The notes below the pieces were generated by a model that saw only the letters and a list, made by a program, of their open reading frames with translations, was not told where the DNA came from and did no database searches. Made by a program: the position numbers and the translations under genes. DNA of 40,688 nt from Mesorhizobium sp. J18 (lineage in GTDB: Bacteria; Pseudomonadota; Alphaproteobacteria; Rhizobiales; Rhizobiaceae), in assembly GCF_007829525.1 (NCBI RefSeq), contig NZ_VLJP01000026.1, positions 1-40,688 of the forward strand, given 5' to 3'. Each line of letters begins with the position of its first letter. Position 1 is the stretch's first letter. Positions 8,134 to 40,688 of this stretch are shown piece after piece.

Positions 8134-9729
8134 ATGAAAACCAAGACCATTTTCGCGGCGGCGCTACTCGCTGCCACGATGCTGAGCGGCGCGGCAAGCG
8201 CGAAGACCTTCGTCTATTGTTCGGAAGGATCGCCGGAAGGCTTCGATCCCGGCCTTTACACCGCCGGCACAACCTTCGACGCCGCTGCCCATACCGTCTA
8301 CAACCGCCTTCTCGAATTCAAGCCGGGCACCACTGAAACAGAACCGGGCCTGGCGGAAAGCTGGGAGGTTTCCGATGACGGCCTGGAATACACCTTCAAG
8401 ATCCGCTCCGGCGTGAAGTTCCAGACCACCGACTTCTTCACGCCGACCCGCGAACTGAACGCCGACGACATCATCTTCTCCTTCGAGCGTCAGTTGAAGG
8501 AGGACAATCCGTGGCACCAGTATGTCGCCGGCGCCGCGTGGGAATATTTCAGCGGTATGGGTTTCCCGGATCTCATCAAGTCGATCGAGAAGGTCGACGA
8601 CATGACGGTGAAATTCGTGCTGAATCAGCCCGAGGCACCCTTCCTCGCCAATCTGGCGATGCCCTTCGCCTCGATCATGTCGAAGGAATATGCCGACAAG
8701 CTCGAAGCCGACGGCAATATGAACCAGCTCAACCAGCAGCCGCTCGGAACCGGGCCATTCGCCTTTGTCGCTTATCAGCCGGATGCGGTGATCCGCTACA
8801 AGGCGAATCCGGACTATTGGGGCGGGGCGCAGAAGATCGATGATCTCGTCTTCGCCATCACGCCGGACGCGTCGGTACGCTACCAGAAGCTGAAGGCTGG
8901 CGAATGCCATCTGATGCCGTTCCCGAACGCGGCCGATATCGAGTCGATGAAGGCCGATCCGAACCTCAAGGTGATGGAGCAGGAGGGCCTCAACATCGCC
9001 TATCTGGCCTACAACACCACGCAGGAGCCTTTCGACGATCCGAAGGTGCGCAAGGCGCTCAACATGGCGATCAACAAGGAAGCGATCGTGGAGGCCGTGT
9101 TCCAGGGCTTCGCAACGCCCGCCAAGAACCCAATCCCGCCGACCATGTGGTCCTACAACGACGCCGTCGAGGACGATTCCTATGATCCCGAGGCGGCGAA
9201 GAAGATGCTGGAAGAGGCAGGCGTGACGGATCTTTCCATGAAGGTCTGGGCGATGCCAGTCTCGCGTCCCTACATGTTGAATGCGCGCCGCGCAGCCGAA
9301 CTCATCCAGTCGGACTTTGCCAAGATCGGGGTCAATGTCGAGATCGTGACCTATGAATGGGCCGAATATCTGGAGCGTTCCTCGGCAAAGGACCGCGACG
9401 GAGCGGTCCTCCTCGGCTGGACCGGCGACAATGGCGACCCGGACAACTTCCTGCACACTCTGCTCGGCTGTGATGCCGTCGGCGGCAACAACCGCGCCCA
9501 GTGGTGCAACGAGGAGTTCAACAAGCTGGTGACGGACGCCAAGCGCACCACCGACCAGGCGGAGCGCACCAGGCTCTACGAAGAGGCGCAGGTCGTCTTC
9601 AAGCGCGAGGCGCCCTGGGCCACGATCGACCACTCCTTGTCCGTCGTGCCGATGCGCAAGGAAGTCGAGGGCTTCGTCCAGAGCCCGCTGGGCGACTTTG
9701 CCTTCGACGGTGTAGACCTCGTCGAATAG
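8134..9729 (+). CDS. dppA: Dipeptide ABC transporter periplasmic binding protein
   Basis: A 531-residue family 5 extracellular solute-binding protein, close to the usual DppA length. A Sec signal peptide spans residues 1-24 (KTKTIFAAALLAATMLSGA, cleavage after ASA). Recognisable DppA segments are VYCSEGSPEGFDPGLYTAGT at the mature N-terminus, LAYNTTQEPFDDPKVRKAL in the middle, and GWTGDNGDPDNFLHTLLGC with NRAQWCNEEFN near the C-terminus. The latter two are typical of true dipeptide (and haem-binding) DppA proteins rather than long-oligopeptide OppA. ATG 8134 follows AGGGGAG and begins the signal peptide; upstream in-frame ATGs would spoil it. It is the first gene of dppABCDF. The 188-nt gap upstream probably holds the operon promoter, but no convincing -35/-10 pair was found. 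Confidence 0.95.
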   Translation: MKTKTIFAAALLAATMLSGAASAKTFVYCSEGSPEGFDPGLYTAGTTFDAAAHTVYNRLLEFKPGTTETEPGLAESWEVSDDGLEYTFKIRSGVKFQTTDFFTPTRELNADDIIFSFERQLKEDNPWHQYVAGAAWEYFSGMGFPDLIKSIEKVDDMTVKFVLNQPEAPFLANLAMPFASIMSKEYADKLEADGNMNQLNQQPLGTGPFAFVAYQPDAVIRYKANPDYWGGAQKIDDLVFAITPDASVRYQKLKAGECHLMPFPNAADIESMKADPNLKVMEQEGLNIAYLAYNTTQEPFDDPKVRKALNMAINKEAIVEAVFQGFATPAKNPIPPTMWSYNDAVEDDSYDPEAAKKMLEEAGVTDLSMKVWAMPVSRPYMLNARRAAELIQSDFAKIGVNVEIVTYEWAEYLERSSAKDRDGAVLLGWTGDNGDPDNFLHTLLGCDAVGGNNRAQWCNEEFNKLVTDAKRTTDQAERTRLYEEAQVVFKREAPWATIDHSLSVVPMRKEVEGFVQSPLGDFAFDGVDLVE

Positions 9730-30163: not shown

Positions 30164-32362
30164 TCAGGCTGACAGATTCGTGGTGATTGGCAGCTTCCGG
30201 ACCGTCTTGCCGGTCGCAGCGCGTAGCGCATTGGCGACGGCCGGGCCGATCGGCGGAACGCCCGGCTCACCGACGCCCGTGGGCGGTTCCTGCGACGGCA
30301 CGATATGGACCTCGACTTGCGGCATCTGGTCGATCCGAAGCGGCGTGTAGGTATCGTAGTTCTCCTGGTCCACGACCCCTTCCGTGAGGGTGAGCTCCTC
30401 CTGCAGGATAGCGCCGAGACCAAAGCCTATGCCGCCTTCCATCTGGGCGCGGATCTGATCGGGGTTGATCGCGGTGCCGCAATCCACGGCGCATACGACC
30501 CGATCGACCTTGAAGTCGTTGTCGCCATTATAGGTGATCTCGACCACCTCGGCGACATAGGTCGAGAAGCTTTCATGCAGGGCCACGCCGCGGAAACGGC
30601 CTTCAGGCAGGGGCGTTCCCCAGCCGGCCTTCTCGGCCGCCAGCCGCAGGACCCCCGCGTGACGCGGATGGTCGCCGAGCATTGAAAGGCGGAACTCGAC
30701 CGGATCACGGTTTGCGGCTGCCGCCAGTTCGTCGATCAAGGTTTCCATGACATAGGCCGTGTGGGTAGAGCCCACCGAACGCCACCACAGAACAGGGATC
30801 TTCACATCCGTCGTCGTCAGATCGACTTTCAGGTTCGGGATCGCGTAAGGCAGGTTCGCCGCACCTTCCACGGAAGTCGGGTCGATGCCGTCCTTGATCA
30901 TCGCGGCCATGGCGGAGCCTGCCATGATCGACTGGCCTACGATGTGGTCATACAGGCCGACGATATTGCCATCCTTGTCGAGGCCGGCCTTCACCGCATG
31001 CACATAGGCGGGACGGTAGCGCCCGCCGCGCATGTCGTTCTCGCGGGTCCATTGCACCTTTACCGGCTTGCCGGGGCCGAGCGCGCGCGCCGCCGCCACG
31101 GCTTCGACAATGAGGTCGGCATCCGAAACCGCGCGGCGGCCGAAGCTGCCGCCGGTCTTCATCACATGCAGCCTGACCTTGTCCGGCGTCGTGCCGCCGA
31201 CCTCGGCGGCGACCATCTGATAGAGATCGGGCATCTGGTGTCCGCCCCAGACATCGATCGTGCCGTCCTCGTTGATGCGGGCGGCCGCATTGAGCGGTTC
31301 TATGGAGGCGTGAGCGAGATAGGGAAACTCGTAATGGCCCTCGATTATTTTTTCCGCATTGGCGAGCGCGCCGGCGGCATCTCCGTCATTGCGCGCCGTG
31401 GCGGCAGCCGGTCCGTCGGCAATCCTGTTGTACTCGGCCATGATCTCGGCCGAGCCGCGCTTTTCAGCCTTGTCCTCGTTCCATGTCACTTCCACAAGGT
31501 CGCGGCCCTTGAGCGCGGTCCACATGTCCTTGCCGATCACGGCAATGCCGCGGGGCGTCTGGACGACGTCCACAATCCCGTCGAGCGCCTTCGCCTTGTC
31601 GGCGTCGAAGCTTGCCACCTCGGCGCCGAATTTCGGCGGATGGATCATCACGGCAGTGCTGAGCCCGTCCATCTTGAGGTCGATCGTGTAGGCCTGCGTA
31701 CCGTTCGTCTTGCCGGACGAATCGTAACGCTTCAACGAGTCCGAGCCGATCTGGGTCCACTCGTCGCGTGGCTTCAGCGGCACGTCCCCGGGCACCGGCA
31801 TTCCTGCCGCGGCCTCGGCGAGATCGCCGAAGGCAGCGCTTTGGCCGGATGGATGCGAAACGACGCCCTTGGCCACGGTGATCTCGGCTTCCGGCACGTC
31901 CCACGTCCTGGCGGCCGCGGCTATCAGCATCGCGCGGGCCGCCGCACCCGCCTTGCGGTAGCGCTCCCAGGAGGAGGTCATGGAGGTGGAGCCGCCGGTT
32001 CCCTGCATGGCGCCGCCCCAGGCGAGGTTGCCGTAAAGGGCGGTATTGCCGGAGGCGCCGATCACATCGACCTGCGCCCAATCACCGTCGAGCTCCTCCA
32101 TGACCAGGGTGGCGATGCCGAAATAGGAGCCCTGGCCCATTTCGAATTGCGATGAATGGACCAATATCCGGTTGTCCGGTGTGATCTCGACATAGGCCTG
32201 GAACGGGTTGGCGGCGTCCTTCTGGTCCGACTGGGCATGCGCCGGAGCCATCGGAAGCATGGTATAGCCGACTACGAGGCCCGCGGCCGTGGCGGCCGTG
32301 CCGAGGAGAAACTGGCGCCGCGTGGGCTGCAAGGTGCTTTCCTTGAAACGAAATAGCAGCAT
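30164..32362 (-). CDS. iorB: Molybdenum hydroxylase large subunit, isoquinoline 1-oxidoreductase beta type
   Basis: A 732-residue molybdopterin-binding subunit of the xanthine dehydrogenase family, IorB subgroup. A Tat-type signal is present (PTRRQFLLGTAATAAGL, then APAHAQ), so the enzyme is exported folded with its cofactor. The domain GHYEFPYLAHASIEPLNAA is the family substrate-channel motif. GVGEPGVPPIGPAVANAL near the C-terminus carries the catalytic Glu699. It hydroxylates an N-heterocycle or aldehyde-like substrate at a carbon next to the heteroatom; the actual substrate is unknown. It follows the Fe-S subunit gene after 3 nt. No cytochrome, XdhC-like chaperone or FAD subunit gene adjoins, so partners must be encoded elsewhere. 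Confidence 0.94.
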   Translation of the reverse strand: MLLFRFKESTLQPTRRQFLLGTAATAAGLVVGYTMLPMAPAHAQSDQKDAANPFQAYVEITPDNRILVHSSQFEMGQGSYFGIATLVMEELDGDWAQVDVIGASGNTALYGNLAWGGAMQGTGGSTSMTSSWERYRKAGAAARAMLIAAAARTWDVPEAEITVAKGVVSHPSGQSAAFGDLAEAAAGMPVPGDVPLKPRDEWTQIGSDSLKRYDSSGKTNGTQAYTIDLKMDGLSTAVMIHPPKFGAEVASFDADKAKALDGIVDVVQTPRGIAVIGKDMWTALKGRDLVEVTWNEDKAEKRGSAEIMAEYNRIADGPAAATARNDGDAAGALANAEKIIEGHYEFPYLAHASIEPLNAAARINEDGTIDVWGGHQMPDLYQMVAAEVGGTTPDKVRLHVMKTGGSFGRRAVSDADLIVEAVAAARALGPGKPVKVQWTRENDMRGGRYRPAYVHAVKAGLDKDGNIVGLYDHIVGQSIMAGSAMAAMIKDGIDPTSVEGAANLPYAIPNLKVDLTTTDVKIPVLWWRSVGSTHTAYVMETLIDELAAAANRDPVEFRLSMLGDHPRHAGVLRLAAEKAGWGTPLPEGRFRGVALHESFSTYVAEVVEITYNGDNDFKVDRVVCAVDCGTAINPDQIRAQMEGGIGFGLGAILQEELTLTEGVVDQENYDTYTPLRIDQMPQVEVHIVPSQEPPTGVGEPGVPPIGPAVANALRAATGKTVRKLPITTNLSA

Positions 32363-32365
32363 GGC

Positions 32366-32824
32366 TCAGATCTCCAGCTGGTGGGCGGCCTCGTGGATAG
32401 CCGCGCGGATGCGATGATAGGTTGCGCAGCGGCACAGATTGCCGCTCATGGCCGCATCGATGTCTTCGTCCGTTGGCTTCGGCGTCTCCGTCAGAAGGGC
32501 CACGGCCGACATGATCTGTCCCGACTGGCAATAGCCGCACTGGGGAACGTCCAAATCCGCCCATACGGCCTGCACCGTTTCTCCGACCTTGCCGGAAACG
32601 CCCTCGATCGTGGTCACAGAGGCGCCTTCGATGTCGCCTATTGCGGTCTGGCACGAGCGCGTCGCAATGCCGTCCACATGAACGGTGCAGGCGCCGCATT
32701 GGGCGAGCCCGCAGCCGAACTTCGTTCCGGTAAGCCCGATGACGTCGCGGAGCGCCCAGAGCAGCGGCATCTCCGGATCGACATCGAGCGTTCGCGCTTC
32801 GCCATTGAGGGTGAAAGCGACCAT
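32366..32824 (-). CDS. iorA: 2Fe-2S subunit of molybdenum hydroxylase
   Basis: A 152-residue electron-transfer subunit. The N-terminal plant-type 2Fe-2S domain has [20 protein letters not shown] with a later Cys (ATRSC). The C-terminal helical domain binds the second cluster through [12 protein letters not shown] and [15 protein letters not shown]. It has no signal peptide, as usual; it is carried across the membrane with the Tat-tagged IorB. ATG 32824 follows AAGGAG and starts the conserved sequence ([12 protein letters not shown]); the frame continues upstream without similarity. It is the first gene of the two-gene operon. Confidence 0.94.
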
Positions 32825-32909
32825 GGCTTGCTCTCCTTGTCTTGAGCTGGCTATAGCGTTGCGCCTCCTCCGGCGGGGTGCCGGAGTCTTTGTCGAACGC
32901 AGCAGACGC

Positions 32910-32938
32910 AGATTAGGGGCGCCTCGCCTGGGCAACAA
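32910..32938 (-). promoter_or_regulatory. Candidate promoter of iorAB
   Basis: On the minus strand TTGTTG (32938-32933) is followed after 17 nt by TAATCT (32915-32910), a moderate sigma-70 match 86 nt upstream of the iorA start. The rest of the 358-nt gap (32825-33182) contains no gene but holds the structured element at 33014-33176. Confidence 0.3.
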
Positions 32939-33013
32939 CCGGATAGACGGCAAATCGCGAGATCGTGAAGTGGAGCGGCGATGATGAGAGCGCTTTTAGC
33001 AGCAGCGCCGTTC

Positions 33014-33182: not shown

Positions 33183-34112
33183 TCAGGCGGCGGCAGCTTT
33201 CCGAAGGATGCGAGCCTTGGCGGCGAGCTCCTTGGTCGCGTCCACCGTTTCCTGGGCGGCATACCAGTAGCGCGGCTTGAGTTCGATATTGAAGAGAACG
33301 CCTTCGGGAAACTCGCATTCGGCCATCAGCGTGTCCCAGGGAATATCGCCCCAGCCGACCGGCAGGTGCAAGTCGCCATGGCCGTAGGCGACGCGCTCGC
33401 CGTCCGTGAACATCCAGATGTCGTCCTGCCGGCCGAAGCTGTCATGGACATGCAGATGGCGTGAGTACGGAGCCAGCGCCTTGACCTCCTGGACGAAATC
33501 GTCGCGGCGGCCGTCGAAGTCGAGCTTCTGATAGGCATGGCTGAAATCCAGCGTTGCTACCACGTTCGGATGCGCGATGGCGGCAAGCTCGGCGGCGAGC
33601 CGCGTCGGGGACGAGGCATGGACCGCACCCTTGTAGCCACCGAACAGGGTTTCGACGCAAAGGAAGAGATTCAGCTGCTTTGCGACATCCCCGGCCTTCG
33701 AAAGCCATTCGCGCTGCCGGTCATAGGCTGCCTCGATGCCGTCACCCTGCTGAACGGGGATCAGACCGGAATGGATAACGTAATTCTCGGCGCCGACCTC
33801 CGCCGCCACTTCAAGCGAGGCGGCCAGCACCTCCATATGGCGCGGCAGGCGGTAGGCTTCATCCATGAAATTGATGGCGAGCGGTCCGTGGACCGAATAG
33901 ATCACGTTACGCCCGGTACAGGCCCTCTTCAGCGCCTCGAGTTGCGGACGGCGGATTTTCCCGCCGACGACGATGTCCATGTCGTAGGTCGGCAGTTCGA
34001 TCGCTTCGACGCCGAGTTCCTGGATCATGTCGAGTTCCTCGGCGAAATCGCTGAGATCGTCCTTCCGCTTGTGGGCGGAGATGCCGGTTCCTGCGGCGCC
34101 ATTGGGGAGCAT
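33183..34112 (-). CDS. Sugar-phosphate isomerase/epimerase-like TIM-barrel protein
   Basis: A 309-residue xylose-isomerase-like TIM barrel (AP_endonuc_2 family). Metal-binding residues fall at the expected strand ends: YSVHGPLA, YVIHSGLI, CVETLFGG, LDFSHAY, HLHVHDSFG, GHGDLHLPVGWGDI and FNIELKPRY. Members isomerise, epimerise or otherwise process sugars, inositols and sugar phosphates, and the fold is shared with endonuclease IV, which cuts phosphodiesters. It is the last gene of the Opp-type operon, 30 nt after the permease gene, so it probably acts on the imported compound. The ATG at 34112 follows AAAGGACC. The substrate is unknown; the Pho box upstream of the operon hints at a phosphorus-containing compound (inference). 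Confidence 0.88.
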   Translation of the reverse strand: MLPNGAAGTGISAHKRKDDLSDFAEELDMIQELGVEAIELPTYDMDIVVGGKIRRPQLEALKRACTGRNVIYSVHGPLAINFMDEAYRLPRHMEVLAASLEVAAEVGAENYVIHSGLIPVQQGDGIEAAYDRQREWLSKAGDVAKQLNLFLCVETLFGGYKGAVHASSPTRLAAELAAIAHPNVVATLDFSHAYQKLDFDGRRDDFVQEVKALAPYSRHLHVHDSFGRQDDIWMFTDGERVAYGHGDLHLPVGWGDIPWDTLMAECEFPEGVLFNIELKPRYWYAAQETVDATKELAAKARILRKAAAA

Positions 34113-34142: not shown

Positions 34143-35015
34143 TCAGGTCAGCGTCGGGTCGAGCCGGTCGCGCAGCCAGTCGCCCACTACGCTGACCGCC
34201 AGCGTGGTGAACATGATGACGAAGGCCGGCGCGAGCATGATCCATGGGGCGTTGGTCAGGTATTCGCGGCCATAGCCGACCATATTGCCGAGGCTTGTCA
34301 TCGGTGGCTGTACGCCGAGCCCGAGGAAGGAGAGGCTGCTTTCCAGGAGAATGATCTCGGGAAAGACAAGCGTCATGGAGACGATCAGGGTCGAGGCGAT
34401 GTTCGGTAATATATGCTTGAGATAGATGCGTGCGGGGCTCGCTCCGATCTGCGCCACCGCCGCTGCATAGCCCTGCGCGCTGGCAGAAATCGCCAGGCCG
34501 CGCGCTATGCGGGCATAGCGCTCCCAGCCATAGAAGCCCATGAGGCACACCAGCAACAGAAGCGAATTGCCGAAGAAGGCGAGGACCGCCAGAGAAAGGA
34601 TCAGGAACGGCAAAGCCGCCTGAAAGTCCGCCAGCATGAGCACCAGTTGTTCGACGAATCCGCGGAAATGGGCGGCCAGGAAGCCCAGCAGAGTCCCGAA
34701 GAACGCTGAAATCAACGACGCGCCGAAAGCGATCAGGAGCGAGACGCGGATCGATTCGATCAGCCGCGAAAGAACATCCCTGCCGAGTTCGTCGGTGCCG
34801 AGCAAGTGCGCGGGGTTGCCGATCCGGGCAAGCCTGTTGCCGAGATCCATGGAGGTGATGCCGTAGGGCCGGATCACATCCGCGAAAATAGCGATGCCAA
34901 CCATCGCCACGAGCCAGAAGATGGCAATATAGACGGAGACGGGAATGCCCTTGCCGCCGCTTCCATCTTCCCGGGAGCGAACCGCCTTCTCGGCGGGAAG
35001 CGTGGCGTCCGTCAT
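34143..35015 (-). CDS. Opp/Dpp-type ABC permease, C subunit
   Basis: A 290-residue inner-membrane permease of the OppC/DppC type. After a short cytosolic N-terminus, helix 1 is SVYIAIFWLVAMVGIAIFA. The signature HLLGTDELGRDVLSRLIES follows, and the EAA loop is QGYAAAVAQIGASPARIYLK. The C-terminus SVVGDWLRDRLDPTLT is family-typical. Its ATG overlaps the stop of the B-type permease (35012-35015). It shares the operon with two ATPases, a binding protein and the TIM-barrel gene. Confidence 0.94.
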   Translation of the reverse strand: MTDATLPAEKAVRSREDGSGGKGIPVSVYIAIFWLVAMVGIAIFADVIRPYGITSMDLGNRLARIGNPAHLLGTDELGRDVLSRLIESIRVSLLIAFGASLISAFFGTLLGFLAAHFRGFVEQLVLMLADFQAALPFLILSLAVLAFFGNSLLLLVCLMGFYGWERYARIARGLAISASAQGYAAAVAQIGASPARIYLKHILPNIASTLIVSMTLVFPEIILLESSLSFLGLGVQPPMTSLGNMVGYGREYLTNAPWIMLAPAFVIMFTTLAVSVVGDWLRDRLDPTLT

Positions 35016-35941
35016 GTATGCCCCCCTGTCCGCAGCCGCGGGTCGAGATAACCGTAAAGAATATCAACGGTAAGGTTCGAAACGACCATGGTGATCGAGA
35101 CCAGGAGCAGGATGCACTGAACGACGGCCAGATCCCGGTTGGCCACGGAAGAAACGAGCAGGCGGCCCACGCCGGGCCAGGCAAACAGGGATTCGACCAC
35201 CACTGCGCCCGCGAAGAGCGAGCCCACCATGAAGCCGACAATAGTGACCACGGGGATCGAGGCATTGGGGAAGGCGTGGCCGCGCACGACCCGCGCCCAC
35301 GGCACGCCCTTGGCGCTGGCGGTCCGGATATAGGGCTGGCCAAGAACTTCCAGCATGGCGCTGCGCGTGAAGCGCGCGAGGATCGCCGCACCTCCCACGC
35401 CAAGAGTCAGCACCGGCAGGATGGCATGCATCCATGTATCCTGGCCGCCGGAAGGAAACCAGCCGAGGATCACGGCGAAGATGAGGACAAGCAGCAATCC
35501 GAGCACGAAGCTTGGCATGGTGAAGCCCACAATCGCGCCGATCATCACGATGCGGTCGATCGCACTGTTGCGGTGGAGCGCTGCATAGATGCCGGCCGGA
35601 ATGCCGAGCCCGATCTTGATCAGCAGTGCGGGAATCGTGAGCTGCAGCGTTGCCGGAATGCGTTCGGCGACAAGCATGATGGCAGACTGGCCATCGCGCA
35701 TCGACACACCGAGATCGCCCCTGATGATCGCCAGGAAATAGCGCAGATATTGCTGCCAGATGGGATCATCCAGTCCCCACGATTTGCGGAAGGCGGCGAT
35801 CGCCTCGGGGGGAGAGTCCGGGCTCAGTATGATCAATGCAGGGTCGCCGGACAGGCGCAGAACGATGAATGCGAATGTGACGACCAGGGCCACGGTGATG
35901 CATGCCCGTGCAACGCGCAGTGCCAGAAAGCGGAGCATCAC
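35012..35941 (-). CDS. Opp/Dpp-type ABC permease, B subunit
   Basis: A 309-residue OppB/DppB-type permease. It opens MLRFLALRVARACITVALVV, followed by LRLSGDPALIILSPDSPPEA in the periplasmic loop. The EAA loop is QPYIRTASAKGVPWARVVRG (about residue 197), and a C-terminal membrane segment ends in NLTVDILYGYLDPRLR. Starts and stops overlap by 4 nt with both neighbours (ATPase F upstream, permease C downstream), indicating tight translational coupling. Confidence 0.94.
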   Translation of the reverse strand: MMLRFLALRVARACITVALVVTFAFIVLRLSGDPALIILSPDSPPEAIAAFRKSWGLDDPIWQQYLRYFLAIIRGDLGVSMRDGQSAIMLVAERIPATLQLTIPALLIKIGLGIPAGIYAALHRNSAIDRIVMIGAIVGFTMPSFVLGLLLVLIFAVILGWFPSGGQDTWMHAILPVLTLGVGGAAILARFTRSAMLEVLGQPYIRTASAKGVPWARVVRGHAFPNASIPVVTIVGFMVGSLFAGAVVVESLFAWPGVGRLLVSSVANRDLAVVQCILLLVSITMVVSNLTVDILYGYLDPRLRTGGHT

Positions 35942-36936
35942 ACGACTCCTTCGAGGGAGGGCTGTGCGGTGGAGACCGCCACCAGATGGCAGGCCACCGA
36001 GCGATCGTCTGTCGTCTGCTTGAGTGCAGGCGTCTCGCTCCGGCAGCGTGCCGTTGCAAATCTGCAGCGCGGATGGAAGGCGCAGCCGGACGGGCGGTTT
36101 GCCGGATTCGGGGGCTCTCCCTGAAGGATGATGCGTTCCTTCAGCGGCGTTCCCGGCTGGGGGACGCTCGACACGAGCGCCTGCGTATATGGATGAAGCG
36201 GCTCGCGGAAAATGTCCTCGGAAGAACCTTCCTCGACGATGCGGCCCAGATACATCACCGCTACGCGGTCGCTGATATTCCGAACGACTTTCAGGTCGTG
36301 GCTGATGAACAGCATGGCGATGCTGAATCGCTCCTGGAGGTCAGTCAGGAGATTGACGACCTGCGCCTGTATCGAGACGTCCAGCGCCGAAACGGGTTCA
36401 TCGCAGACGAGAAATTCCGGGCGTGAGGCCAGGGCCCGGGCCAGAACGGCGCGCTGGCGCTGGCCGCCCGACAGTTCATGAGGGTAACTTCTGCCATGAT
36501 CCGGCCTGAGGCCCACGGCGGCGAGCAATTCATGCACCCGCTCGCGGCGCTCGGCAGCATCTCCGATGTTGTGCACATCAAGCGGCTCGCGCACCTGATC
36601 GGCGATCGTCAGGCGCCGGTCCAGGGCGGCCAGGGGGTCCTGATAGATGAGTTGCATCCGTGCGCGCAGGCGTCGCCATTCAGAAGTCCCTGCGGCCGGT
36701 ATGGGGCGCCCGTCAAACGAGATGCTGCCTTTCGATGACGGCTCGATGCCAAGCAGCAGGCGACCGGTGGTCGATTTGCCTGAACCGGATTCGCCGACAA
36801 TACCAAGTGTGCTTGCCCGCTCGACGGACAGGGAGACGCCGTCCACGGCACGCACTGTCGTCGGCGGCGCAAACATGCCGCGCCGTGAGGCATAGTCCTT
36901 GACCAGACCCTGAGCGGTGATGATGTCCGCGCTCAT
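35938..36936 (-). CDS. Opp-type ABC ATPase, F subunit
   Basis: A 332-residue ATPase. Walker A is [10 protein letters not shown], the Q-loop QDPLAALDRR (the usual Ser-Leu-Asn-Pro pattern is changed here), the signature LSGGQRQR, Walker B FLVCDEPVSALD and the H-loop ISHDLKVV. The C-terminal oligopeptide extension is complete, with the cysteine pattern SGCAFHPRCRFATARC. ATG 36936 overlaps the D-subunit stop (ATGA); the upstream reading frame lies within that gene. It is a full-length member, unlike DppD/DppF elsewhere in the window. Confidence 0.94.
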   Translation of the reverse strand: MSADIITAQGLVKDYASRRGMFAPPTTVRAVDGVSLSVERASTLGIVGESGSGKSTTGRLLLGIEPSSKGSISFDGRPIPAAGTSEWRRLRARMQLIYQDPLAALDRRLTIADQVREPLDVHNIGDAAERRERVHELLAAVGLRPDHGRSYPHELSGGQRQRAVLARALASRPEFLVCDEPVSALDVSIQAQVVNLLTDLQERFSIAMLFISHDLKVVRNISDRVAVMYLGRIVEEGSSEDIFREPLHPYTQALVSSVPQPGTPLKERIILQGEPPNPANRPSGCAFHPRCRFATARCRSETPALKQTTDDRSVACHLVAVSTAQPSLEGVV

Positions 36937-37922
36937 GCGACTGCGAAATCCCGCTGCCGTTCCGAGGCCGGAGAGTCCGATAACGGATGCAGGCAGGCGA
37001 TTTGCCGGGTTCCTGACAGGGTGGCCAATGCCGGCTGTGTGTGATGGCAGTTTTCCCGGGCCGACCTGCATCTGGGTGAAAATGCGCAGCCGGCCGGCAT
37101 ATGGCGCGGATCCGGGACGGTTCCCTCGATGGGAACGAACCGGCGCCGTGGCCCGTCGAGGCGCGGCAATGCCTCGAACAGGCCATTGGTGTAGGGATGA
37201 CGCGGCTGCCTGAAGAGTTCCGCTGTCGGGCCGCTTTCGATGATGCGGCCGGCATACATCACGCAGGCTCTCTCGCAGACCTGCGAGACCGCGCCGAGAT
37301 CATGGCTGATGAAGACCAGTGCCAGTCCTGTTTCGTTGCGCAGCCTGACAATGAGATCGAGTATCTGCGCCTGGATCGTGGCGTCCAGTGCAGTTGTCGG
37401 CTCGTCAGCGACCAGGAGATCCGGGTTGCCGGCCAGGGCCATCGCGATCATTACGCGTTGGTTCTGCCCGCCGGAAAATTCGTGCGGATAGTTGTCGAGC
37501 CTGCGGGAGGCGTCGGGAATGCCGACGAGATCCAGAAGGCGCTTGGCCTCTGCGCGTACGGAGGCCCCGGTGAGACCGCGATGGAGAGCGATCGCCTCCT
37601 CGATTTGCCGGCCGACGCGGATGATGGGATTGAGCGCACTGGACGGATCCTGGAAGATCATGGCGATCCGTGCGCCGCGCACTTTCTCGATTTCGGACCG
37701 CGGCATGGTCAGAAGGTCTGCTCCCTCCATCATGACGCGGCCGCCGATTCGGGCTTTCTGGGGCAAGAGGCCGAGCGCGGCAAGCCAGGTGACCGACTTC
37801 CCGCAGCCCGATTCCCCTACAAGGCCTACGGCCTCGCCTTTCCCGATCGTCAGATCGATGCCGTGAAGGACACGCACACCGTCAAATGCAACCGTCAGTC
37901 CGGTGATTTCCACCAGCGACAT
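36933..37922 (-). CDS. Opp-type ABC ATPase, D subunit
   Basis: A 329-residue ATPase. Walker A is GESGCGKSVT, the Q-loop QDPSSALNP, the signature FSGGQNQR, Walker [13 protein letters not shown] and the H-loop ISHDLGAV. The C-terminal extension has the cysteine motif AGCAFSPRCRSARENC. It begins 23 nt after the binding-protein stop and has no separate promoter or attenuator hairpin in that gap. The ATPases precede the permeases in this operon, the opposite of the dpp operon in this window. Confidence 0.94.
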   Translation of the reverse strand: MSLVEITGLTVAFDGVRVLHGIDLTIGKGEAVGLVGESGCGKSVTWLAALGLLPQKARIGGRVMMEGADLLTMPRSEIEKVRGARIAMIFQDPSSALNPIIRVGRQIEEAIALHRGLTGASVRAEAKRLLDLVGIPDASRRLDNYPHEFSGGQNQRVMIAMALAGNPDLLVADEPTTALDATIQAQILDLIVRLRNETGLALVFISHDLGAVSQVCERACVMYAGRIIESGPTAELFRQPRHPYTNGLFEALPRLDGPRRRFVPIEGTVPDPRHMPAGCAFSPRCRSARENCHHTQPALATLSGTRQIACLHPLSDSPASERQRDFAVA

Positions 37923-37945: not shown

Positions 37946-39589
37946 TCAGTTCATTCCACCCCAGTTGCCGGGGCGGAAGTCCATCGCAAAGGCGGACGCC
38001 GCCTTCCATTTGATCGACTTCGGCTTGGCGGTGAAGACCGCGTTCTGATGCAGGACGGTGTAGGCCGGATCCTCGCGCTCGCAGATTTCGAGCATCCGCT
38101 TGAACGCCTCGCGGCGGCGGGCGCGGTCGGTGCTTGTCTCAAGCTCGACCGACAGGCGGTTCGCCTCTTCATTCGTCCACTCGCCGACCTGTTGCTGCTG
38201 GCCATTCGGACCGTGCTGGGCGACGATGGAGGAGACAGGGTCATTGAAGGGCGCGGAGTTCGACCAGTCGCGAACGGCGCGTCCCGGAGTCTTCTCGAGA
38301 ATCTGCTGCCAGTTCTCCTTCATTTCGATCTGCACGTTCAGGCCGACCTGATTCCACATTTCGGCCAGGATCTGACCGGTTGCGGTCTGGTTGGTGTAGT
38401 AGTTGTTGAGAAGACGATAGGGTATCGGATCGCCCTTGTAGCCAGCCTGCTTGAGAAGGTCGCGGGCCAGTTCGGGATTGTATTCGGGAACCGACCAGTC
38501 CTTGATGAACATGTCGCCGTAATATTCCCACTGCAGACCGGCAGGCACGCGCGTGCGGCCGGCCCACAGCGAATCCACGATCGCCTGGCGGTCGATCGCA
38601 TGGGTGAAGGCCCGGCGCACGAGCGGGTTCTGAAGCTGCTCGTGATTCTTGTCGAATACCGTCAGGCGGTGATTGAGGACGGTGCCGCCCTGGACCTCGA
38701 AGGCCTCGTTGCTCTCGATGCCGGCAATCTGGTCCGGCGGGACATCGCAGGCGAACTGGTATTCACCCGAAAGCAGGCCGTTGATGCGGGAGGCGACTTC
38801 GGGCACTTCGACGAAGCGAATCTCCTTGAGCGGCGGACGGCCACCCCAATATTCGTCATGGGCGGCGAGAAGAAGATAGTTGTCCGGCTTGAATTCGACG
38901 ACCTTGTAGGGACCGGTGGTCACCGGGCCACGGGACCAGTCGACATAGCTCTTGGCTTCAGCCCAGCCGCGCCGGCTCGTGATTTCACTGCCATAGCGCG
39001 AAATGCGTCCCTCGATCGTGACGTCCGGCGTACCGTTGACGAAGCGGACGGTGTATTTGTCGACCACCTCGACGCCGAGCAGGGCGGGCCAGGAACGGCG
39101 CGCCACGGCTGGAACCTCGATGGGAAGTTCCTTGTCGGCGCGGCCGGTGATATTCTGCTCGGTGGTGTAGATCGTCTTCCCTGCCACCGGCTCCGTATCG
39201 CCGAACATGCGTTCGCGGCCGAAGGTAAAGGCGACATCCTCGGCGGTCAGTTCGTCGCCATTATGGAATTTCACGCCCTCGCGCAGCTTCAGCTCGACGG
39301 TCTTGTCGTCCACACGTTTCCATTCGGTGGCGAGCAGGGGAACGGAATCAAGCTGGCCAAGCCAGTTCCGGCCGATCAGACCTTCCCAAAGCGAGGAGAA
39401 GAAAATGCGCTCGCCGACATTGGACTGCTCGCGCATGACGTCGAGCGTGTTCGTGTTCGAAATCTTCTGCACCGCGATCGTGATGGAGGGACGATTGTCC
39501 GCCTGCGCAATGGCGAAACGGGGCAAGATGAAAGAGCCGGCTGTACCGGCTGCCGCTCCAAGCACGGATCGGCGCGTCAGTTGAACCAT
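37946..39589 (-). CDS. Opp-type ABC transporter binding protein with Tat-like signal
   Basis: A 547-residue family 5 solute-binding protein (SBP_bac_5). The signal peptide LTRRSVLGAAAGTAGSFILP with twin arginines, ending AIAQA, suggests Tat export, which is unusual but known in rhizobia. Family segments are VELKLREGVKFHNGDELTAE, RRAFTHAIDRQAIVDSLWAG and LLKQAGYKGDPIPYRL. It captures a peptide-, opine- or glycan-like solute. It differs clearly from DppA of this window and lacks its GDNGDPDN motif. ATG 39589 starts the signal peptide; the longer frame to 39694 has no role I can see. It is the first gene of the operon and lies 143 nt or so downstream of a Pho-box promoter. Confidence 0.93.
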   Translation of the reverse strand: MVQLTRRSVLGAAAGTAGSFILPRFAIAQADNRPSITIAVQKISNTNTLDVMREQSNVGERIFFSSLWEGLIGRNWLGQLDSVPLLATEWKRVDDKTVELKLREGVKFHNGDELTAEDVAFTFGRERMFGDTEPVAGKTIYTTEQNITGRADKELPIEVPAVARRSWPALLGVEVVDKYTVRFVNGTPDVTIEGRISRYGSEITSRRGWAEAKSYVDWSRGPVTTGPYKVVEFKPDNYLLLAAHDEYWGGRPPLKEIRFVEVPEVASRINGLLSGEYQFACDVPPDQIAGIESNEAFEVQGGTVLNHRLTVFDKNHEQLQNPLVRRAFTHAIDRQAIVDSLWAGRTRVPAGLQWEYYGDMFIKDWSVPEYNPELARDLLKQAGYKGDPIPYRLLNNYYTNQTATGQILAEMWNQVGLNVQIEMKENWQQILEKTPGRAVRDWSNSAPFNDPVSSIVAQHGPNGQQQQVGEWTNEEANRLSVELETSTDRARRREAFKRMLEICEREDPAYTVLHQNAVFTAKPKSIKWKAASAFAMDFRPGNWGGMN

Positions 39590-39738: not shown

Positions 39739-39794
39739 GTAATAGGACAGGCGGATGACAGCCCGATGAATCCCGGATGACAGCTATTTGACGG
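39739..39794 (-). promoter_or_regulatory. PhoB box array and -10 element of the Opp-type operon
   Basis: Read on the minus strand, four 7-base units recur at an exact 11-bp period: CCGTCAA (39794-39788), CTGTCAT (39783-39777), GATTCAT (39772-39766) and CTGTCAT (39761-39755). PhoB binds CTGTCAT-N4-CTGTCAT repeats that replace the -35 element. After 10 bp comes TATTAC (39744-39739) as -10, the same spacing as in well-studied pst promoters. A weaker fifth unit (TATTCAC, 39805-39799) keeps the period. Transcription would start near 39732, giving a leader of about 143 nt. Confidence 0.8.
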
Positions 39795-39805
39795 TACTGT
39801 GAATA

Positions 39806-40048: not shown

Positions 40049-40459
40049 TCAGTTGGCGGACGGAACGGGGCAGCCCATGTCCCCTTCCTCGCAATTCAGA
40101 TAGCCTTCGAGGTCCTGGATGCGGGATTGTGTCAGGTGGGTCATGCATTGTGCAACGAGCATCGGCATCATGCTTCCTCCGGCCGCCTGGGCAGTCCGGA
40201 AATCGCATTCCGCATCGCGGAACCTGACCCAATCCCGCTGTGCCTGAACAAGAAGCTTCTTGGTATCCGCATCGTCCCGCAGGCGGATTTCGATCTGCCT
40301 GTAAAGCTCATTGAGCTTCTCGTCGGACTTCTTGAACGCAGCGTCAGCACATTTGTTCAGAGCGGCCTGATCCTGAGCCTTGTCGTAGCAATTGTCCTGG
40401 GCAAAGGCGAAAGCCGGCATGGTCGCAATCACGATAGCAATCAGTATGGCCATTCTCAT
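40049..40459 (-). CDS. LprI/DUF1311-family secreted protein
   Basis: A 136-residue periplasmic protein of the lysozyme-inhibitor LprI N-terminal domain family (DUF1311). The signal peptide is RMAILIAIVIATMPAFAFA (residues 1-20, cleavage before QDNCYD). The mature part has the family pattern CYDKAQDQAALNKCADAAFK, then LNELYRQIEIRL, LVQAQRDWVRFRDAECDF, and a C-terminal CMTHLTQSRIQDLEGY. Conserved cysteines probably form disulfides. A few members inhibit lysozymes; most are uncharacterised, so lysozyme inhibition is only possible. ATG 40459 is chosen for the signal peptide, with AAAGG 10 nt upstream. It is a single-gene unit on the minus strand. Confidence 0.88.
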   Translation of the reverse strand: MRMAILIAIVIATMPAFAFAQDNCYDKAQDQAALNKCADAAFKKSDEKLNELYRQIEIRLRDDADTKKLLVQAQRDWVRFRDAECDFRTAQAAGGSMMPMLVAQCMTHLTQSRIQDLEGYLNCEEGDMGCPVPSAN

Positions 40460-40688
40460 CTTCGTGCCTTTCGGTCCCGGCAAGCTCTTGAGTGGCTTGG
40501 CCCTTGCCGGGAACTTATCCGCATGCCGGCACAACGGTAATCCTGTTCACCCGGCCTCGCACCATTTCGACCAGATCAACAGGTCGTGACCCTGGCCGGT
40601 GATCAGCCCCACTTGAGTGGTCCATTTTAAAAGTTAGTGCATCGCCGGTCTTTGGTCCATCGGAAGGATGGTTTCCGGGGCTGGCGGG
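40460..40688. other. Right-hand end of window, no gene seen
   Basis: 229 nt without a supported gene. The tail differs in base composition (ATTTTAAAAGTTAG at about 40623) and contains the dyad CCACTTGAGTGG (40609-40620) followed by TCCATTTT. Sequence of this kind occurs at the ends of some IS21-like elements, but the window stops before anything can be confirmed. The promoter of the LprI-type gene should also lie here. Confidence 0.35.

Follow-up and report, generated by a model that had tools for sequence, protein, structure and literature searches.

The closest described relatives of the system analysed here come from several fields. Promoters activated by PhoB carry a -10 element about 10 bp downstream of the Pho box and have no -35 element; in the E. 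coli pst promoter, which belongs to this class, the units are phased at 11 bp, with 10 bp to the -10 element and again no -35. Phosphodiester import under Pho-type control is known from Ugp (ugpBAEC, ugpQ), an importer of glycerophosphodiesters and glycerol-3-phosphate. The Pho box consensus itself has been given as direct repeats of CTGTCAT with a 4-nt spacer called A/T rich (PMC3131613). A review describes the acc operon of Agrobacterium as activated by phosphate limitation, and the agrocinopine operon is thus a precedent for Pho control (PMC4086400). In AccA, its agrocinopine-binding protein, N54 and S419 touch the pyranose as well as the phosphate, the phosphate oxygens are held by Y375 and Y376, and other residues bind the pyranose or gate it (El Sahili 2015, PMC4526662). 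Finally, the solved proteins 2vqr and 2w8s are phosphonate monoester hydrolases (PMH, PehA) of Rhizobium leguminosarum and Burkholderia caryophylli (PMC5066984), which have become model enzymes of catalytic promiscuity (PMC5488252).

The window, that is, the whole stretch of DNA analysed here, comprises 40,688 nucleotides from Mesorhizobium sp. J18. Its minus strand carries an array of Pho box units upstream of six genes which, judging from their orientation and their small or overlapping gaps, form a putative operon with a TIM barrel gene (TIM-A) in last place. The site is, with good probability, a PhoB-activated promoter of a phosphodiester importer that is a sister of the agrocinopine system and whose phosphodiester (or phosphomonoester) cargo would be cut by TIM-A. 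The features, with the evidence for each, are as follows.

39744..39805, minus strand: Pho box array of five TCA-bearing 7-mers plus CTGTCCT, period 11 bp (direct reading, genome rank, shuffles)
39739..39744, minus strand: -10 element TATTAC, 10 bp past the fifth Pho unit, without -35 consensus (direct reading)
37946..39589, minus strand: substrate-binding protein, SBP_bac_5 family, AccA-like (family profile, nearest solved sequences, pocket residues)
36933..37922, minus strand: ABC transporter ATPase 1, OppD/DppD-like (profiles)
35938..36936, minus strand: ABC transporter ATPase 2, OppF/DppF-like (profiles; the start is the ATG overlapping the preceding stop)
35012..35941, minus strand: permease 1, BPD_transp_1 (profiles)
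34143..35015, minus strand: permease 2, BPD_transp_1 (profiles)
33183..34112, minus strand: TIM-A, a TIM barrel of the AP_endonuc_2 family (PF01261), candidate EndoIV/CbiR-like phosphodiesterase (profiles, alignment, neighbourhoods)

On the minus strand from 39805, the units run TATTCAC (39805-39799), CCGTCAA (39794-39788), CTGTCAT (39783-39777), GATTCAT (39772-39766) and CTGTCAT (39761-39755), separated in order by AGTA, ATAG, CCGG and CGGG and followed by CCGC-CTGTCC-TATTAC, with the last hexamer at 39744-39739. Direct minus-strand reading of 39805-39739 bears out the pattern that had drawn attention to the site in a sequence-only reading: each of the five units contains TCA, CTGTCAT appears in exact form twice, successive units start exactly 11 bp apart, and exactly 10 bp lie between the fifth unit and TATTAC. 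That reading had counted four to five units; five TCA-bearing units are indeed present, and a sixth, CTGTCCT (39750-39744), which overlaps the first T of the -10 element, had been overlooked. CTGTCAT direct repeats with 4-nt separation are thus found in the array, although its spacers are mostly G/C, in contrast to the A/T-rich spacer of the stated consensus (PMC3131613). With a -10 element at 10 bp and no -35, the promoter has the PhoB-activated layout; the distance from the end of the -10 element to the ATG at 39589 is 149 bp, and neither a sigma-70-like promoter pair nor a terminator-like site was found between 39590 and 40060. An LprI-domain protein is encoded on the minus strand at window 40049-40534, 244 bp upstream of the array. 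The array was scored with weights of our own, set from the CTGTCAT consensus after the site had been seen; when the 401-bp upstream region was dinucleotide-shuffled 2000 times, no shuffle reached the scores for three, four or five units and one reached that for two. The earlier judgement that a chance origin is very unlikely agrees with the absence of any shuffle matching three or more units.

The rank of the site within its own 4.26-Mb genome was assessed with the pattern CTGTCAT-N4-CTGTCAT, which gave 248 matches with at most three mismatches, compared with 89 for a reversed control pattern. Perfect matches do not occur in the genome, the only one-mismatch match is the window site, and 21 matches have two mismatches; the window array holds the two-unit Pho box with the fewest mismatches in the genome by this CTGTCAT consensus pattern, which is not a rhizobial matrix. 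One of the 21 two-mismatch matches lies in the same array and one at a phosphonate-type binding protein; because the remaining 19 lack a Pho gene assignment (from ORFs only), a match with two mismatches is weak evidence by itself. Three places in the genome have four phased TCA without mismatch: the window array, an 11-bp tandem repeat at C45:8388-8456 and a single match on C17. The tandem repeat has TCA in every 11-bp unit, and its remaining bases are unlike a Pho box.

The genome encodes PhoB at C2:201949, above the family cut-off (336 vs 296.2 bits), and a pstS-type gene about 5 kb away (C2:196505) has a Pho-type pair upstream with three mismatches. A phosphonate-type (phnD-like) binding-protein gene has a four-unit Pho array with two mismatches directly upstream (C12:42591-42676, locus L161) and is likely, on this sequence, another Pho regulon member of the same genome, while the ugpB-like gene at C4:43723-45030 has an upstream Pho-type pair with three mismatches. 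The window site, with one mismatch, has fewer than the sites at the pstS-type (3), phosphonate-type (2) and ugpB-like (3) genes. No convincing array was found at two other phosphonate-type binding proteins (L159, L160), at the PstS-like L157 or at phoB itself (L148), and at a third PBP_like_2 protein (L158) there is nothing beyond a pair, which lies 587 bp ahead of the matched start.

Conservation of the box in orthologous loci was then a matter of where the operon begins. Directly upstream of the binding-protein gene, a four-unit score of at least 24 was reached in 0 of the best 80 of 589 confirmed orthologous loci, and the median score over these loci (7.2) was below the shuffle mean (9.3); the scores are low because TIM-B, another PF01261 TIM barrel, or PehA is the first gene in most of them. 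The scan was redone at the operon head, with first genes assigned by tblastn, on 92 promoters (79 of the best 80 of 589 loci, 12 further loci and the window; L039 and L138 were left out for want of enough upstream sequence, and L144 was re-read at its binding-protein promoter). Arrays at p ≤ 0.01 against mononucleotide shuffles were found at 75 of the 92, namely 13 of 19 with the binding protein first, 13 of 17 with PehA first and 49 of 56 with TIM-B first; the 17 that missed this threshold include the 66% identical relatives L043, L044 and L045. Because the Bradyrhizobium loci are not independent, a non-redundant set of 33 promoters, window included, was drawn up. Scores of at least 18 were obtained for 20 of these 33, compared with 19 of 1,793 random windows and 1 of 478 regions upstream of other ORFs, most of the latter being coding sequence or shadow frames. 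The -10 element played no part in locating the arrays; a TA nonetheless lies exactly 10 bp past the best three-unit array in 14 of the 33 (window included) and one unit later (+21) in 5, any other offset occurring at most 3 times, and among control windows 25 of 1,793 have TA at +10. The bases of the units vary among relatives while the -10 distance stays fixed. The loss of the repeats from relatives with the operon, which the sequence-only reading had named as refuting, was accordingly not observed: 75 of the 92 promoters retain an array at this threshold, also where a different gene comes first.

Five further plasmid loci, chosen from 109 records, gave arrays in S. meliloti, R. tumorigenes and Pseudoroseomonas, while the R. 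etli and A. larrymoorei promoters, both with a divergent regulator, missed p ≤ 0.01. More distant AccA-like homologues (29-39% identity) have arrays at p ≤ 0.005 in 5 of 16 cases (L052, L053, L056, L057 and L066, that of L056 falling at a guessed start codon); L061 reached p 0.03, and none was found in the remaining 10. Taken together, the genome rank, the presence of PhoB, the arrays of relatives and the -10 geometry support, at the level of sequence, the proposal that the operon belongs to the phosphate-starvation regulon.

The sequence-only reading had taken the operon for an apparent peptide/opine transporter. Opp/Dpp/Nik family profiles do match the transporter parts, but the binding protein misses the curated equivalog cut-offs by far (NikA-type 144 of 600, DppA 79 of 1005 and OppA 40 of 947 bits), and a peptide or nickel transporter was judged unlikely on these scores. 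The operon probably does not encode a peptide transporter; the sequence points to an importer of AccA type (agrocinopine-like), whose cargo is most likely a phosphodiester. Among solved sequences, the binding protein is nearest to AccA (E 8e-81): the E-values of the seven nearest distinct ones run from 8e-81 to 9e-73. Six of the seven bear the name agrocinopine/AccA, the other is called only a substrate-binding protein, and the next sequence follows at 4e-32. In the printed alignment, N54, Y375, Y376 and S419 of AccA correspond to N57, Y397, Y398 and S443 of the window protein. All four phosphate contacts are kept in 109 of 109 homologues examined, none having been dropped (84 at ≥74% identity, 9 at 55-73% and 16 at <45%), whereas between 0 and 2 of them are found in each of the seven paralogues from the own genome. 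N284 is kept in 93 of 93 homologues at ≥55% identity and in 8 of the 16 at <45%. The pyranose and gate contacts of AccA, on the other hand, are changed in the window protein (W178 to Y, W423 to P, E434 to Q and E510 to F). We read this as a phosphate grip kept and a sugar grip changed relative to AccA; since the phosphate-holding part is kept and the pyranose part is changed, the importer most likely takes a phosphodiester (or phosphomonoester) other than agrocinopine. With E510, W423, W178 and E434 not kept, the ligand cannot be read off, and we infer only its class, because AccA is stated not to recognise phosphate alone (PMC4526662).

The window encodes a second family 5 binding protein (8326-9651, plus strand), 27% identical to the first. 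At L080 (8986-13917), L141 (8989-12335) and L144 (8956-12276), two to three tandem AccA-like binding-protein genes precede one ATPase/permease set, as if several fed one transporter. About 230 bp downstream of the window operon lies a two-subunit molybdenum hydroxylase (window 30164-32953, minus strand), composed of a 2Fe-2S subunit and a molybdopterin subunit with a Tat-like signal; an XdhA-like gene is likewise found downstream in L144, on the other strand.

Enzyme genes beside orthologous transporters were counted by tblastn of the flanks of the best 80 of 589 confirmed loci. PehA/PMH lies directly upstream of the transporter in 17 of these 80, TIM-B upstream on the same strand in 56 and a GDPD downstream in 5; one has TIM-A without PehA, and one (L087) has none of these enzymes. 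A recognised phosphodiesterase family (PehA or GDPD) is hence present in 22 of the best 80 of 589 and only a TIM barrel with EndoIV-like ligands in 57, so that, of the 79 loci where an enzyme gene adjoins the transporter, 57 depend on PF01261, a family that also contains epimerases. Families were profile-checked on single representatives (L082 for GDPD, L069 for PehA, L092 and L144 for TIM-B), the others being assigned by tblastn identity. With 988 bits, the L069 protein exceeds the PehA cut-off of 900; its scores are 1195 bits with 2w8s and 1051 bits with 2vqr. In R. johnstonii 3841, plasmid pRL9 carries an annotated PehA gene whose end lies 33 bp ahead of the binding-protein gene; the PehA protein (pRL90232) aligns end to end with 2vqr, one residue differing. 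Neither PehA nor GDPD was found in the window; the best PehA match of the own genome has 33% identity and lies on another contig. Plasmids of S. meliloti Ak57 and A. larrymoorei carry a divergent sugar-binding regulator, five transporter genes and then a GDPD and a TIM barrel gene, while R. etli IE4803 has a DeoR-type regulator and a GDPD, R. tumorigenes a GDPD and Pseudoroseomonas PehA.

Several observations were made in passing at these loci. At L164, L165 and L166, a divergent DeoR/SorC-type sugar-binding regulator (profile-checked at L164 only) lies upstream of the binding-protein gene, which suggests substrate control beside or in place of phosphate control. A type I phosphodiesterase/nucleotide pyrophosphatase-like gene follows TIM-A at L141:17085-18563, adding a further family with phosphodiesterases to this setting. 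The operon of L081 (titled Bacillus subtilis SK6B4) closely resembles Pseudochrobactrum/Bradyrhizobium operons, as does that of L134 (titled Frankia sp. RB7); both records probably carry a wrong label or contain contaminating sequence.

TIM-A, the putative last gene product of the operon, has EndoIV-type metal ligands and is most likely the enzyme that hydrolyses the imported phosphodiester in the cell. H75, H114, E154, D189, H192, H219, D247 and H249 are invariant in eight of eight sequences (TIM-A, the S. meliloti and A. larrymoorei TIM barrels, and TIM-B), positions which we take to correspond to the EndoIV metal-ligand set of nine; E277 occurs in each type but is two columns off in TIM-B, so it does not form one column. 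In profile matches, MJ1311 is best (2e-24), ahead of epimerases (6e-10 and weaker) and EndoIV (3e-6), and the curated EndoIV and CbiR profiles match weakly, far below their cut-offs. The predicted structure (mean pLDDT 68.5, pTM 0.76) has ketose 3-epimerases as its best fold matches (Z 22.8), with EndoIV absent among the 50 matches listed; Foldseek likewise places epimerases first, the best EndoIV match appearing at rank 41 (E 2.5e-7). As epimerases outrank EndoIV in the fold search, the fold alone does not decide.

Relatives of TIM-A at 1e-40 or better occur in 37 of 297 genomes of the order (own included). In close relatives, TIM-A had been expected after the transporter; the closest five other genomes (69-83% identity) instead show a ugpB-like gene divergent from TIM-A in 5 of 5 stretches, and no AccA-like binding protein was found in these stretches of 12.5-13 kb. 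All five TIM-A/ugpB-like intergenic regions reach p ≤ 0.01 for an array on one strand or both, the limits at L200 and L201 being set by analogy with L199 and not from listed ORFs. The neighbours at L199 match Ugp profiles best, with UgpB (337 of 411) and UgpA (281 of 335) below and UgpE (305 of 297) above the cut-off. In one genome, the strand opposite TIM-A carries a phnM-type gene of the C-P lyase pathway (L203:680-1816), some 560 bp past TIM-A.

Among the alternatives, the most serious concerns this enzyme. It is possible, though clearly less probable than hydrolysis, that TIM-A is an epimerase or isomerase for the sugar part of the cargo and that another enzyme hydrolyses it: the fold search favours ketose 3-epimerases, PF01261 contains both kinds, and in S. 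meliloti and A. larrymoorei the TIM barrel follows a GDPD, where both may act in turn. Yet the extra EndoIV-type ligands H114, D247 and H249 are invariant in eight diverse members, the printed epimerase alignment has no His opposite H114, the TIM barrel stands without PehA or GDPD in 57 of the best 80 of 589 loci, and the close TIM-A relatives adjoin a ugpB-like gene. Much less probable is a chance or non-regulatory origin of the repeats, which we regard as highly improbable even with an unrelated 11-bp TCA tandem repeat in the same genome (C45), given that the shuffles never reached three or more units and that the arrays of relatives differ in their bases around a fixed -10 distance.

Two further readings accept the promoter and question the cargo. 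Pho control might be real and the cargo a peptide or another compound without phosphorus, the operon having been recruited for carbon or nitrogen balance; the Opp/Dpp/Nik matches and the divergent sugar-binding regulator of the S. meliloti relative would fit, but this is unlikely in view of the equivalog cut-offs missed by NikA-type and DppA, the AccA phosphate residues kept throughout the homologues, and the PehA or GDPD gene adjoining the transporter in 22 of the best 80 of 589 loci. Slightly less likely still is direct membership in the acc system, with agrocinopines as the cargo. AccA is the closest solved relative and several relatives have GDPD genes; against this, the sugar and gate residues differ, and no GDPD was detected by tblastn in the searched flanks of 75 of the best 80 of 589 loci, nor in the window. 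Direct membership was rejected on the pocket residues.

The preferred reading, a phosphate-controlled phosphodiester importer with an intracellular hydrolase, can be put as a sequence of steps. Phosphate shortage would activate PhoR/PhoB; phosphorylated PhoB, as we infer from the geometry, would bind the phased repeats, replace the missing -35 and recruit RNA polymerase to TATTAC. The promoter would then drive the putative six-gene operon, consisting of the AccA-like binding protein, two ATPases, two permeases and the TIM barrel. The importer would carry a phosphodiester into the cytoplasm, where the TIM barrel, or its stand-in, would cleave it and make its phosphorus usable. No phosphatase for the product is present in the operon.

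A Pho box by itself would make this an ordinary regulon member. What lends the locus wider interest is that, from its sequence features, a family whose annotation reads peptide transport or simply ABC transporter seems to import phosphodiesters and to be controlled by phosphate. Its gene neighbours also provide PehA/PMH, whose natural substrate is, to our knowledge, not known, with a concrete biological setting, and TIM barrels that carry the annotation 'sugar phosphate isomerase/epimerase' or 'TIM barrel protein' become candidates for a new Pho-regulon phosphodiesterase. It seems reasonably likely that these loci represent a widespread alphaproteobacterial phosphorus-scavenging module, in which a PhoB-controlled AccA-like importer of a sugar-type phosphodiester is combined with an exchangeable intracellular phosphodiesterase (PehA/PMH, GDPD or either of two EndoIV-like TIM barrels); such a module would give phosphonate monoester hydrolases a physiological role and make the Ti-plasmid agrocinopine system one specialised branch.

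Among the titles and abstract openings listed in the literature searched, with subscription journals mostly outside its scope, as was the large Pho-box survey cited in PMC3131613, no paper was found naming the operon as Pho-controlled or tying PehA to an AccA-like importer, and no mention of pRL90227 to pRL90231 was found in this literature. A rhizosphere phenotype of pRL90234 (PMC4495286) belongs, judging from the numbering (pRL90232 being PehA), to a neighbouring sugar-transporter permease and not to this operon; the same paper did not confirm it after transduction. XanT/XanP of Xanthomonas are a TonB-dependent transporter and a 2H phosphoesterase, and so belong to other families (PMC12807533).

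Compared with known systems, the locus stands closest to acc/AccA of Agrobacterium Ti plasmids, with which it has in common an Opp-type ABC importer, an AccA-type binding protein and the phosphate contacts N54, Y375, Y376 and S419. It differs in its changed sugar contacts and in a TIM barrel of another family in place of AccF; no AccR-type regulator was noticed on inspection of the genes adjoining the window operon, and the window type is widespread outside Ti plasmids. PMH/PehA adjoins the orthologous transporter upstream in the 17 of the best 80 of 589 loci noted above, but not the window operon. Ugp is linked through the close TIM-A relatives, which are divergent from a ugpB-like gene, although its binding protein belongs to a different family (SBP_bac_8, vs SBP_bac_5 in the window). 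As for endonuclease IV, CbiR and MJ1311, eight of nine metal-ligand positions expected for this type are invariant in the eight TIM barrel sequences, with the ninth shifted in TIM-B; overall identity is low, and the fold score does not separate TIM-A from epimerases. Relative to the E. coli pst promoter, the window promoter has the same phasing and -10 spacing, but GC-rich spacers and more units. The promoter class and the importer's sister are known; the enzyme set is another one, and the ligand is likely to differ.
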